NCBI GenBank assembly: GCA_024683675.1
Contig: JAIKYB010000016.1
Location: forward strand, 1 to 35,598
From: Treponema sp.
Lineage (GTDB): Bacteria > Spirochaetota > Spirochaetia > Treponematales > Treponemataceae
DNA: 35,598 nucleotides
Reading direction: 5' to 3'
This document shows, in pieces, positions 23,553 to 33,713 of this stretch; the stretch's first letter is position 1; each line of letters opens with the position of its first letter. A program made the translations under genes and the position numbers. The notes under the pieces were generated by a model that worked only from the letters and a program-made list of their open reading frames with translations, did not search any database and was not told the origin of the DNA.

Positions 23553-25229
23553 TTAGAACAAACCGCTGATAATTCCTTCATCATTTACGTCAATATTCAG
23601 GGCAGCTGGGGCCTTAGGAAGTCCTGGCATTGTCATAATATCTCCGGCAAGGGCAACAACAAAGCCTGCTCCGGCATAAAGCTGAACATCGCGAACCGGG
23701 AACTTAAAGCCTCTTGGAGCTCCAATCAGCTTTGGATCATGAGAAATAGAATTCTGTGTCTTTGCAATACAAACAGGAAGCTTGCCATAACCGCCTTCTT
23801 CAAAGGCCTTAAGCTTTTTAAGTGCAGCAGAATCAAAGTCTACATCCTCTGCGCGGTAGATTTCTTTTGCAATCTTTCTGATTTTATCAGCAAGAGGTAA
23901 ATCCAGTTCGTAAAGTGGATGATAATCAGCTTTACCACTGTCTGCAAGCTCTGCAACAGCCTTAGCCAGTTCTGCGGCACCTTCTCCACCTTTTCCCCAG
24001 CCTTCACAAAGAACAGCCTTACTTCCAATGCCTTCGCAAAGCTTTTCAAGCAATTTTATTTCTTCATCTGTATCTGTAATAAACTTATTTACAGCAACAA
24101 TAACCGGTAAACCAAATTTTGCAATATTTTCTATATGAGTCTGAAGATTTGCAAAGCCCTTTTCTAAGGCCTCTGTATTTGGTTTTGAAAGATCTGCTTT
24201 TGCAATACCACCGTGCATTTTAAGAGCGCGGATTGTTGCAACTATTACAACAGCACTAGGCTTAAGACCAGCACTTCGGCATTTAATATCAAGGAACTTT
24301 TCGGCTCCCAGGTCAGCTGCAAAACCGGCTTCTGTTACAACATAATCGCCGCAGGCAAGAGCACAAAGAGTAGCATTTACAGAGTTGCAGCCATGGGCAA
24401 TATTTGCAAAAGGACCTCCGTGTACAAAGGCGGGGTTCTTTTCCAGGGTCTGAACAATATTAGGTTTAATTACATCTTTAAGAAGGGCTGCGATTGCACC
24501 AGTGCATTTTAGCTGTCCAAAGGTAACGTTTTCCTTGTTATAGTTCTGACCAATTACAATACGGTCAATTCTTTCTTTAAGCTCTGTAATTGTTTTTGAA
24601 AGGCAGACAATAGCCATAATTTCTGAAGCTACTGCAATTGAAAAGTGGTCTTCGCGTGGAACACCCTGCAGGCGTCCGCCAAGTCCAATTGTAATATTGC
24701 GGAGGGCTCTGTCATTTAAGTCTACACAGCGCTTCCAGCTGATTGTGCGAGGGTCTATGTTTAATTCATTTCCCTGCTGCAGATGATTGTCTATAAGAGC
24801 TGCAATAAGATTATTTGCAATGCTGATTGCATGAATATCGCCGGTAAAGTGCAGATTTATATCTTCCATTGGAACTATCTGGGCATATCCACCACCGCAG
24901 GCGCCTCCCTTTACACCAAAGCAGGGTCCAAGGCTTGGTTCGCGGAGGGCAACAACAGTTTTCTTTCCAATTTTATTAAGTCCGTCAGCAAGTCCAATAG
25001 AAACTGTAGATTTTCCTTCTCCCGCTGGAGTTGGTGTTATAGCAGTTACAAGAATCAGTTTTCCAGGCTTTGAAGCGGCTTTTGTCTGAAGAGTCTTTAA
25101 TTCATCAAAGGTAATTTTTGCCTTGTATGGTCCATAGTTTTCCAGTTTATCAGCTGGAATTCCAATTTTTGCGGCAACCTCAGAAACAGGAATCATTTTG
25201 TTTTTCTGAGCGATTTCGATATCTGTCAT
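23553..25229 (-). CDS. fhs: Formate-tetrahydrofolate ligase
   Basis: ATP-dependent synthesis of 10-formyl-THF, feeding purine and one-carbon metabolism. 558 residues from the second ATG (25229), which has AAGAGG at proper spacing; the first ATG (25235) directly abuts that site. The nucleotide loop TPTPAGEGKSTV (residues 66-77 or so) and the family block REPSLGPCFGVKGGACGGGYAQ with DINLHFTGD are unmistakable. The C-terminus has TMPGLPKAPAALNID. Length equals the family norm. In anaerobes this enzyme serves formate assimilation or acetogenic routes; some gut treponemes are homoacetogens, but no other Wood-Ljungdahl gene is visible here. It ends at a bidirectional terminator. Confidence 0.97.
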   Translation of the reverse strand: MTDIEIAQKNKMIPVSEVAAKIGIPADKLENYGPYKAKITFDELKTLQTKAASKPGKLILVTAITPTPAGEGKSTVSIGLADGLNKIGKKTVVALREPSLGPCFGVKGGACGGGYAQIVPMEDINLHFTGDIHAISIANNLIAALIDNHLQQGNELNIDPRTISWKRCVDLNDRALRNITIGLGGRLQGVPREDHFSIAVASEIMAIVCLSKTITELKERIDRIVIGQNYNKENVTFGQLKCTGAIAALLKDVIKPNIVQTLEKNPAFVHGGPFANIAHGCNSVNATLCALACGDYVVTEAGFAADLGAEKFLDIKCRSAGLKPSAVVIVATIRALKMHGGIAKADLSKPNTEALEKGFANLQTHIENIAKFGLPVIVAVNKFITDTDEEIKLLEKLCEGIGSKAVLCEGWGKGGEGAAELAKAVAELADSGKADYHPLYELDLPLADKIRKIAKEIYRAEDVDFDSAALKKLKAFEEGGYGKLPVCIAKTQNSISHDPKLIGAPRGFKFPVRDVQLYAGAGFVVALAGDIMTMPGLPKAPAALNIDVNDEGIISGLF

Positions 25230-27190: not shown

Positions 27191-28552
27191 TTATTTTCTT
27201 TCTGAGAAAGGTATAAATTCTCTTTCGTTCATTACATTCTTGTATGCAGGACGATAGATTCTTCCTCCACTTACAATTTCTTCTATGCGGTGGGCTGACC
27301 ATCCTGCGATACGAGATATTGCAAAGATTGGGGTAAAGAGCTCACGTGGAATGTTCAGCATGGAATAAACGAAGCCTGAATAAAGGTCAACATTTGCACA
27401 GATTCTCTTATCAGACTGGTGCACATCCTGAATAATTCCCGGTGCAAGTCTTTCTATTAAATCATAAAGGGCAAATTCTTCAAGACAGCCCTTTTCTTTT
27501 GCAAGCTCTTTTGCCTTTGCTTTAAGCAGAACTTCACGAGGGTCGTTGATTGTATAAACTGCGTGTCCCATTCCATAAACAAGTCCTGAATGGTCAAAGG
27601 CTTCTTTTGTTGCAATCTTTCTGATATAGTCACCAACTTCATTTTCGTTAGTCCAGTCTTTTACATGGGCCTTAATATCGTCCATCATTTCTACAACACG
27701 AATATTTGCACCACCATGACGGCTTCCTTTAAGAGAACCGATTGCAGCTGCAATTGCAGAGTAAGTATCTGTATCAGCAGAAGAAACAACGTGTACAGTA
27801 AGAGAAGAGTTATTACCACCACCATGCTCTGCGTGTAAAATAAGGGCAAGGTCAAGAATTTCAGCTTCAAGGCGAGAGTACTGCTTGTCTGAGCGGATTA
27901 GGCGCAGAAAGTTTTCAGATGTTGAAAGCTCTGGCTTAGGGTTGTGAATAAACATACTCTTATTGTCATAGTAGCGGCGCTTTGCCTGGTAGCCGTAGGC
28001 TGCAAGTGTAGAGAAGCGGGCAATCAGCTGAACACACTGCTTTACTATGTTACCTATATTTCTGTTTTCCGGATCATCATCATAAGAATAGCTGGCAAGA
28101 ACACCACGTGCCATTTTATTCATGATATTGTTAGAAGGGGCCTTCATAATCATGTCTTCTACGAAGTTGTTTGGAAGGGCTCTGTATTTTCCCAGATAAT
28201 TATTAAATCTGTCTAATTTTTCCTGAGAAGGCAGTTCTCCAAAAAGCAGAAGATAAGCACACTGCTCGTATCCAAACTGCTTGTTTTTTTCTGCATCCTT
28301 AATCAGTTCTTCTACGTTATAACCGCGGTAAACAAGGCGACCTGGTACTGCAATTTTCTGTCCGTCTTTAATTTCGTATCCAACTACATCACCAATGTGT
28401 GTAAGGCCTACAAGTACACCAGTACCGTTTTCGTTGCGGAGTCCTCGTTTTACATCGTATTTTTTGTAGAGGGCAGGGTCAATAGGGTCGTTTAATACAG
28501 CAAGTTTTTCGAATTTTTTGATAAGACTCTCTTCTTCTTTTGCTTCTGACAT
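27191..28552 (-). CDS. gltA: Citrate synthase
   Basis: Condenses acetyl-CoA and oxaloacetate. 453 residues. The three catalytic residues lie in recognised contexts: His in LHAEHGGG (about residue 240), His in GMGHAVYT (about 327) and Asp in NVDLYSGFVY (about 389). The N-terminal region (GVLVGLTHIGDVVGYE and VPGRLVYRGYNVEELI) is of the type seen in anaerobic Firmicutes and spirochaetes. GGAGG lies 7 nt before the ATG. No aconitase or isocitrate dehydrogenase is nearby, so it probably works in a glutamate-forming branch rather than a full cycle. The upstream region carries a conspicuous inverted repeat, suggesting specific control. Confidence 0.96.
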   Translation of the reverse strand: MSEAKEEESLIKKFEKLAVLNDPIDPALYKKYDVKRGLRNENGTGVLVGLTHIGDVVGYEIKDGQKIAVPGRLVYRGYNVEELIKDAEKNKQFGYEQCAYLLLFGELPSQEKLDRFNNYLGKYRALPNNFVEDMIMKAPSNNIMNKMARGVLASYSYDDDPENRNIGNIVKQCVQLIARFSTLAAYGYQAKRRYYDNKSMFIHNPKPELSTSENFLRLIRSDKQYSRLEAEILDLALILHAEHGGGNNSSLTVHVVSSADTDTYSAIAAAIGSLKGSRHGGANIRVVEMMDDIKAHVKDWTNENEVGDYIRKIATKEAFDHSGLVYGMGHAVYTINDPREVLLKAKAKELAKEKGCLEEFALYDLIERLAPGIIQDVHQSDKRICANVDLYSGFVYSMLNIPRELFTPIFAISRIAGWSAHRIEEIVSGGRIYRPAYKNVMNEREFIPFSERK

Positions 28553-28586
28553 ATTGTGTCCTCCATCTTTGGAAAGTTTTTAGAAA

Positions 28587-28632
28587 TGTATAATTATGCA
28601 CTTATCTTACAAGTAAATTACATAATTATACA
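28587..28632. promoter_or_regulatory. Perfect 12-bp inverted repeat of palindromic sites upstream of gltA
   Basis: TGTATAATTATG (28587-28598) and CATAATTATACA (28621-28632) are exact reverse complements, 22 nt apart. Each arm contains the self-palindrome ATAATTAT, so each can itself be a dimer site. Centres are 34 bp apart, close to three helical turns. The pair lies 34-80 nt upstream of the citrate synthase start and just downstream of an XRE regulator gene, which is a candidate binder. Confidence 0.65.
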
Positions 28633-28676
28633 GAAAATCATAGGAGAAATGCAAGTATTATGAAAAAATATTCAAA

Positions 28677-29285
28677 TTATTTTGCGAAACGCTGAGCGGG
28701 AGTAACTACCCATATTGCTTCAAGGTCAGTGTCTCCAACGTTTTGAATTACGTGAGGGGCCCCTGCAGAGTAAGAAACACTGTCGCCCTCTTCAAGAATA
28801 TATTCCTTGCTGTCATAAACAAGCTTAGCCTTGCCTTTTATGATAATTCCCATTTCGTAGCCTATGTGGCCGTAAGAACCACGATGAGTATGGGCTCCGT
28901 AAGGAATCTTTACAGCATAAGTTTCAATATCATTATCATTTGAAGAAGGAGTAGGACGTGGAAGCTCCTGATAAATAACTTCATCTTCATGGATAGAAGG
29001 ACGCTCTGTGCTGCGGATAATGGTTACGGGACGTTCTCTTTTATATTCTTCAAAAAGATATTCCAGGTTAATATCAAGAACATCAGCAAGTGCCAGTAGA
29101 GTATCAATAGCTGGAGAAACGTGATTTCTTTCAATCTGAGAAACAAGACTTTCACTAACTCCTGCTCTTTGAGCAACAACCTTTAAAGTATAGCCCTTGT
29201 GTTCTCTGACTTCCCTAAGCTTTTCTCCAAAATGGTAGGGCTTTTTCTTATTCTTAGTTTCATCAGGATTTTGCGAAGGTGTCAT
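28677..29285 (-). CDS. XRE-family regulator with cupin sensor domain
   Basis: 202 residues. Residues about 20-75 are a Cro/C1-type helix-turn-helix (LREVREHKGYTLKVVAQRAGVSESLVSQIERNHVSPAIDTLLALADVL). Residues about 125-197 are a cupin barrel (AHTHRGSYGHIGYEMGIIIKGKAKLVYDSKEYILEEGDSVSY). This architecture is common in regulators of amino-acid, polyamine or carbon metabolism (PuuR-like), where the cupin binds a small ligand. An AAGGAG ribosome site precedes the start, inside the end of the preceding gene; the two overlap by 23 nt. Located directly upstream of gltA, whose promoter region holds paired palindromes. Control of gltA is therefore plausible. Confidence 0.92.
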   Translation of the reverse strand: MTPSQNPDETKNKKKPYHFGEKLREVREHKGYTLKVVAQRAGVSESLVSQIERNHVSPAIDTLLALADVLDINLEYLFEEYKRERPVTIIRSTERPSIHEDEVIYQELPRPTPSSNDNDIETYAVKIPYGAHTHRGSYGHIGYEMGIIIKGKAKLVYDSKEYILEEGDSVSYSAGAPHVIQNVGDTDLEAIWVVTPAQRFAK

Positions 29286-33677: not shown

Positions 33678-33713
33678 AAGGGACTGCCCGTTATTTGGGC
33701 AGTCCCTTTTTTT
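33678..33713 (+). terminator. Intrinsic terminator after galE
   Basis: AAGGGACTGCCC (33678-33689) pairs perfectly with GGGCAGTCCCTT (33697-33708) around a 7-nt loop, with a T tract to 33713. Confidence 0.95.

Follow-up and report, generated by a model that had tools for sequence, protein, structure and literature searches.

The paired palindromes that precede the citrate synthase gene gltA in a Treponema contig are almost certainly ARG boxes, the predicted operators of the arginine regulator ArgR, and there is a high probability that arginine-loaded ArgR blocks gltA transcription from them. Expression of gltA thus probably drops under arginine-rich conditions. This reading is built on the motif itself, the arg genes in whose company it occurs, the presence of ArgR, conservation of the boxes before gltA, their overlap with the −10 element and their independence from the neighbouring XRE-cupin gene. 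The window, by which we mean the whole stretch of 35,598 nucleotides that was analysed, is a contig (C83) of a draft genome of 2.4 Mb that is 80% complete.

Results

The repeat pair upstream of gltA

In the window the XRE-cupin gene is followed by a 124-bp gap and then gltA, both on the − strand (Table 1). Two copies of the 12-mer TGTATAATTATG are located in the gap at 28587-28598 (+) and 28621-28632 (−), an inverted arrangement given in the preliminary description and confirmed here; only 43 of 20,000 dinucleotide-shuffled versions of the gap contain any non-overlapping inverted 12-mer pair, and a chance origin was rejected on this basis. The distance of 34 bp between centres holds for the 12-mers; measured between the true dyads, which are TGCATAATTATACA (28587-28600) and TGTATAATTATGTA (28619-28632), it is 32 bp. 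The 12-mer alone is not rare in AT-rich DNA, with 5 matches at up to two mismatches against 4.9 expected. The genome scan with the 12-mer that had been proposed returns four exact copies, two of which are the gltA pair and two of which lie elsewhere without a full box, making the exact 12-mer a misleading search pattern. Scored instead with a matrix whose training set excluded gltA sites (99% shuffle threshold, 8.86), the 35.6-kb window contains three places at or above threshold, all in the gltA gap. At the weakest, beside the XRE-cupin stop codon, no conserved element is seen in relatives. Elsewhere in the window a single inverted 12-mer pair within 60 bp is found, AAGGGACTGCCC at 33678-33708; it is positioned just past a galE-like gene and is perhaps a terminator.

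Table 1. Positions of genes, predicted ARG boxes and probable promoter elements in the window.
Feature	Positions	Strand	Basis
gltA, citrate synthase, regulated gene	27191..28552	−	PF00285 (E 7e-113); NF010635 over cut-off
ARG box 2 (predicted), promoter-distal, stronger, AGTGCATAATTATACATT	28585..28602	−	Matrix score 21.3 vs 8.86
ARG box 1 (predicted), weaker, overlaps −10, TCTGTATAATTATGTAAT	28617..28634	−	Matrix score 15.5
Probable −10 TATAAT of gltA promoter, inside box 1	28625..28630	−	Aligned promoters; inferred
Probable −35 TTGCAT, 18-nt spacer	28649..28654	−	TTG conservation
Possible third, weak ARG box by XRE-cupin stop, TTTGAATATTTTTTCATA	28659..28676	−	Score 9.7, just over threshold
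XRE-cupin regulator gene, gltA neighbour, not the likely binder	28677..29285	−	PF01381 + PF07883; dissociation from site

The motif is that of the ARG box

All 18 positions of the Streptomyces ARG box, AWTGCATRWWYATGCAWT, are satisfied by the consensus of the Treponema training sites, ATTGCATAATTATGCAAT, which also resembles the boxes of E. coli, TNTGAATWWWWATTCANW, and B. subtilis, CATGAATAAAAATKCAAK; the three published boxes are as listed in a passage of PMC5291005. In the window, three positions of box 2 differ from the consensus, and box 1 scores lower. Five genomes searched with the pattern yielded 24 loci, and in 17 of these the site precedes an amino-acid gene: argG (3), argJ (2), argD (1), argR (1), gdhA (2), ilvC (2), gltA (3) and one each of a transporter binding protein, an aminotransferase and a PutP-type symporter, some of the gene assignments being made by eye from protein starts. 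The other seven comprise one gltA gap at a contig end, a pair beside glgC (two loci), two sites in coding sequences and two unclear cases. In the window's own genome perfect boxes are found at nine places, compared with one for the reversed pattern used as a control. Two of the nine are beside glgC, and one falls within what was recognised by eye as a helicase-like gene. The other six belong to argR, whose box is 2 bp before the start codon as read, argG, whose box is at a contig end, argD, argJ, an aminotransferase and gltA. Upstream of argG, 8 of 14 regions score over threshold and one more reaches 8.8 against 8.86. The statement that no described regulator has this site therefore fails, as the site matches the published ARG box and precedes both arg genes and argR.

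Perfect ARG boxes are also present between converging glgC and NtrC-like response regulator genes in three genomes (L108:1340-1757, on G000:C15, with boxes at 24167-24180 and 24195-24208; L254:1410-1455; L265:1032-1361). No clear open reading frame is apparent in two of the three gaps, a terminator-like hairpin is visible by eye, and an Rfam search of the gap gave nothing near or over the gathering score. These boxes possibly control, through ArgR, a small RNA or a small protein.

The genome encodes ArgR

A full-length ArgR is encoded elsewhere in the window's genome (G000:C190). It scores 132.8 bits with TIGR01529 (cut-off 130.45), is over the cut-off of PF01316, and aligns across its N- and C-terminal domains to 1f9n and 1b4a, its best solved-structure match being 1f9n, an arginine repressor/activator. 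Within the genus, ArgR is detected in 178/196 genomes at E 0.001 and in 175/196 over the cut-off. The GDD motif, whose Asp128 and Asp129 contact arginine in E. coli ArgR according to a section of PMC2880562, reads GDN in the window genome's protein (L151:1531-2001), the second Asp being replaced by Asn, and GDN, GDS or GEN in the other Treponema ArgRs seen; this change may alter arginine binding in Treponema ArgRs and is a point against the ArgR reading.

Box 1 appears fused to the probable gltA promoter

Relatives share a common architecture upstream of gltA: TTG, a spacer of mostly 17 nt (some 16 or 18), (T/C)GTATAATTAT, and then the palindrome TGNATAWWTATNCA. Alignment on the −10 element, using 80 gltA upstream regions that have a box and TATAAT, indicates that the TTG of the −35 is conserved at 81-91% (79 aligned regions). 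The TTGCAT-TATAAT assignment is drawn from this conservation, since a generic promoter scan did not report the pair and gave only other, weak candidates. TATAAT is followed by TAT, completing the box 1 core, in 77/80 box-bearing regions; of 13 box-less regions with TATAAT, three have the TAT, nine do not and one is cut off. Box 1 thus resembles a weak ARG box merged with the −10.

The box 1 core ATAATTAT is found in 68 of the 71 regions with two elements. Box 2 is located downstream of it by 32 bp in 36 regions, 31 bp in 16, 30 bp in five and 20-21 bp in ten, so that spacings of 20-21 and 30-32 bp account for 67/71, the other four having 41, 52 or 62 bp. Nine further regions have a single box, on the −10 only. 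The preferred spacings approximate two or three helical turns, and the 32 bp of the window about three. The earlier proposal is supported in part: the pair is a palindromic regulatory operator of gltA, its two sites share roughly one face of the helix, and it is tied to glutamate supply. The suggestion of two cooperating dimers fails, ArgR being a hexamer according to the relevant part of PMC6640053.

Conservation of the gltA boxes in relatives

Relatives were collected with the XRE-cupin protein (64 loci, with 30 further loci from 200 genus genomes, many contigs being shared) and additionally with citrate synthase. Conservation upstream of gltA, proposed as a check, is found: a box exceeds threshold in 85 of 105 distinct upstream regions, 20 being without. 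Boxes also occur outside the genus, in 5/11 genomes representing other genera of the family and, beyond the family, in 8/13 scored regions from two further families of the order, one of the 14 regions fetched being unreadable. Such counts are too low where a start codon is misassigned, as in G014.

Box presence is independent of the XRE-cupin gene

Of 93 Treponema genomes tried at gltA, 88 were scored, five having no readable upstream region. A gltA box is detected in 37/49 genomes with both ArgR and XRE-cupin, 19/21 with ArgR only, 10/12 with XRE-cupin only and 2/6 with neither, G005 being counted ArgR-positive by default. Fifty-eight of 200 genomes were called XRE-less, 13 giving no match and 45 a best E no better than 3.7e-12; in 22 of these, chosen for at least 90% completeness, gltA is present in 22/22 and at least one box, at no more than one mismatch, in 20/22. 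In the near-complete subset (57 genomes with completeness of 90% or more and contamination of 5% or less), the gltA box is found in 40/54 genomes with ArgR and 0/3 without, and in 22/36 with XRE-cupin and 18/21 without. The association with ArgR gives a Fisher p of 0.023, a value that ignores relatedness and involves only three ArgR-less genomes.

These three, G068, G077 and G082, have all lost the gltA box, and a search with the ArgR C-terminal domain confirmed that ArgR is absent. No box over threshold precedes argG in them, a 5.5-bit remnant being seen in G077. Conversely, 12 ArgR-less genomes keep the gltA box. Eleven of these are 61-88% complete, and one of the eleven, G184, contains an ArgR C-terminal fragment. 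The twelfth, G055, has ratings of 100% for completeness and 6% for contamination, and counts against the ArgR reading.

Also against the ArgR reading, 14 near-complete ArgR-positive genomes out of 54 score no gltA box. In G014 both elements are present and the miss is due to a start-codon error, G043 and G152 are near misses, and in G078 only 148 nt precede the contig end. In the remaining ten, among them G007 and G011, the absence seems real. The ten also include G106, which is close to the window's species and keeps boxes at argG and gdhA.

Two layouts were encountered in ArgR-positive genomes. In G078 a box pair follows XRE-cupin at a contig end (L114:1380-1680, G078:C4) and gltA is on another contig with a different upstream region (L191, G078:C50), reflecting a rearrangement or an assembly break. 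G007 and G011 (L209, L210; L177, L180) have no boxes at gltA and argG, and their ArgR may recognise another motif or serve a smaller regulon.

Alternative explanations

The preliminary description assigned the pair to the adjacent XRE-cupin protein, which would bind as two dimers and control gltA in response to a small metabolite. XRE-cupin-gltA adjacency is indeed conserved in many relatives, and the protein has both DNA-binding and cupin domains. Such a sensor-regulator is not needed, however, as the box is retained in the ArgR-positive genomes without XRE-cupin (19/21) and lost in G068 and G077, which carry XRE-cupin in the absence of ArgR. In addition, the site occurs before arg genes far from any XRE-cupin gene, and the 200 bp that precede the XRE-cupin gene itself contain no box at any of 64 loci; in the same control, regions upstream of the gene's partner gave 2/60, one of which (L053) is also upstream of a divergent gltA. 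XRE-cupin was dropped as the binder on this dissociation, and the proposal is very improbable. A different role, in which the Treponema XRE-cupin assists ArgR and the two jointly set carbon entry into the citrate-glutamate-arginine route, is unlikely, with a slim chance of being correct. Joint control is conceivable from gene order, as many species have XRE-cupin next to gltA and nine others have it next to argR. In these nine genomes (G034, G060, G087, G094, G145, G156, G160, G161 and G181) argR directly follows XRE-cupin on the same strand, with ∼20 nt between match end and match start, an arrangement suggesting that the regulators may be connected. ArgR may then occupy the boxes, with XRE-cupin acting at another site or on argR itself.

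An RNA origin for the inverted repeat, as a leader hairpin or a terminator between the two genes, is extremely improbable. The 46 nt do fold as RNA (−14.1 kcal/mol, z −4.3), but this is expected of any perfect inverted repeat. Pairing between the arms is not maintained, with 13/14 positions in 1/71 two-element relatives and 9-11 in most, a scan of the gap reported no terminator, and the upstream arm would not be transcribed from the inferred promoter. The hairpin was dropped on the unconserved pairing and the lack of a reported terminator. Alternatively, ArgR could bind the boxes but activate gltA, or act with another factor. ArgR is an activator in some species according to part of a review (PMC12341379), and the changed arginine-site motif could alter the response of the protein. 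Against this, a box on the −10 favours repression, as in the E. coli arginine biosynthetic operators discussed in a section of PMC6640053, and this alternative is accordingly improbable.

Discussion

Repression of gltA by ArgR, our preferred reading, would proceed as follows. When arginine is abundant, arginine-bound ArgR would occupy ARG box 1, covering the −10, together with ARG box 2, which is on the same face some three turns of the helix further downstream. By analogy with E. coli, RNA polymerase would be kept off the gltA promoter. We infer that a single hexamer could span the 32 bp. Citrate synthase would then fall, lowering the supply of 2-oxoglutarate, glutamate and the arginine carbon skeleton, and the products of argJ, argD, argG and other members of the regulon would fall together with it.

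Compared with the ArgR/AhrC regulon of E. coli, B. subtilis and Streptomyces, the Treponema system has the same box consensus, the same regulator protein, boxes before argR and arg genes, and the same overlap of boxes with promoter elements, the E. coli biosynthetic operators overlapping the −10 or −35 (section of PMC6640053). It differs in its target, here gltA, and in spacing. The E. coli ArgR hexamer, with arginine bound, recognises a pair of 18-bp boxes with 3 bp between them (same section), giving dyads 21 bp apart, whereas Treponema dyads are mostly 30-32 bp apart, with 20-21 bp in 10/71 two-element relatives and 32 bp in the window; this wider spacing is a point against the ArgR reading. 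The 3-bp separation is the E. coli design and is not required of every ARG box. ArgR regulons extend to gltBD and ilv genes in some proteobacteria (excerpt of PMC5343134), and control of gltBDF by E. coli ArgR is the topic of PMC1784095, as indicated by the portion consulted. The regulon appears to be extended in the same way from arginine to a glutamate precursor; in Treponema the controlled step would lie higher in the route, at citrate synthase, with gdhA as another gene that carries boxes.

The window's XRE-cupin protein shares its domain order with PuuR-type XRE-cupin regulators, which provide its best NCBIfam match. Its score against PuuR (PRK09943) is 67 bits compared with a cut-off of 211, indicating that it is not PuuR, and no link between PuuR-type regulators and the boxes was found.

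In the literature searched, which mostly lay outside subscription journals, we found neither a report of ArgR control of gltA or citrate synthase nor an ArgR regulon in Treponema, and the parts of PMC12341379, PMC2880562, PMC3616918 and PMC5343134 consulted contain no ArgR control of gltA. gltA is thus probably a new target of the known ArgR system, and the wider box spacing a local feature.

The dissociation of the boxes from XRE-cupin cautions against giving an operator to the nearest regulator gene. The sites listed here provide a candidate ArgR regulon for a genus in which we found none described. If the reading is correct, citrate synthase is under arginine feedback in treponemes and, should the enzyme be biosynthetic rather than respiratory, one repressor would span the route from citrate through glutamate to arginine.
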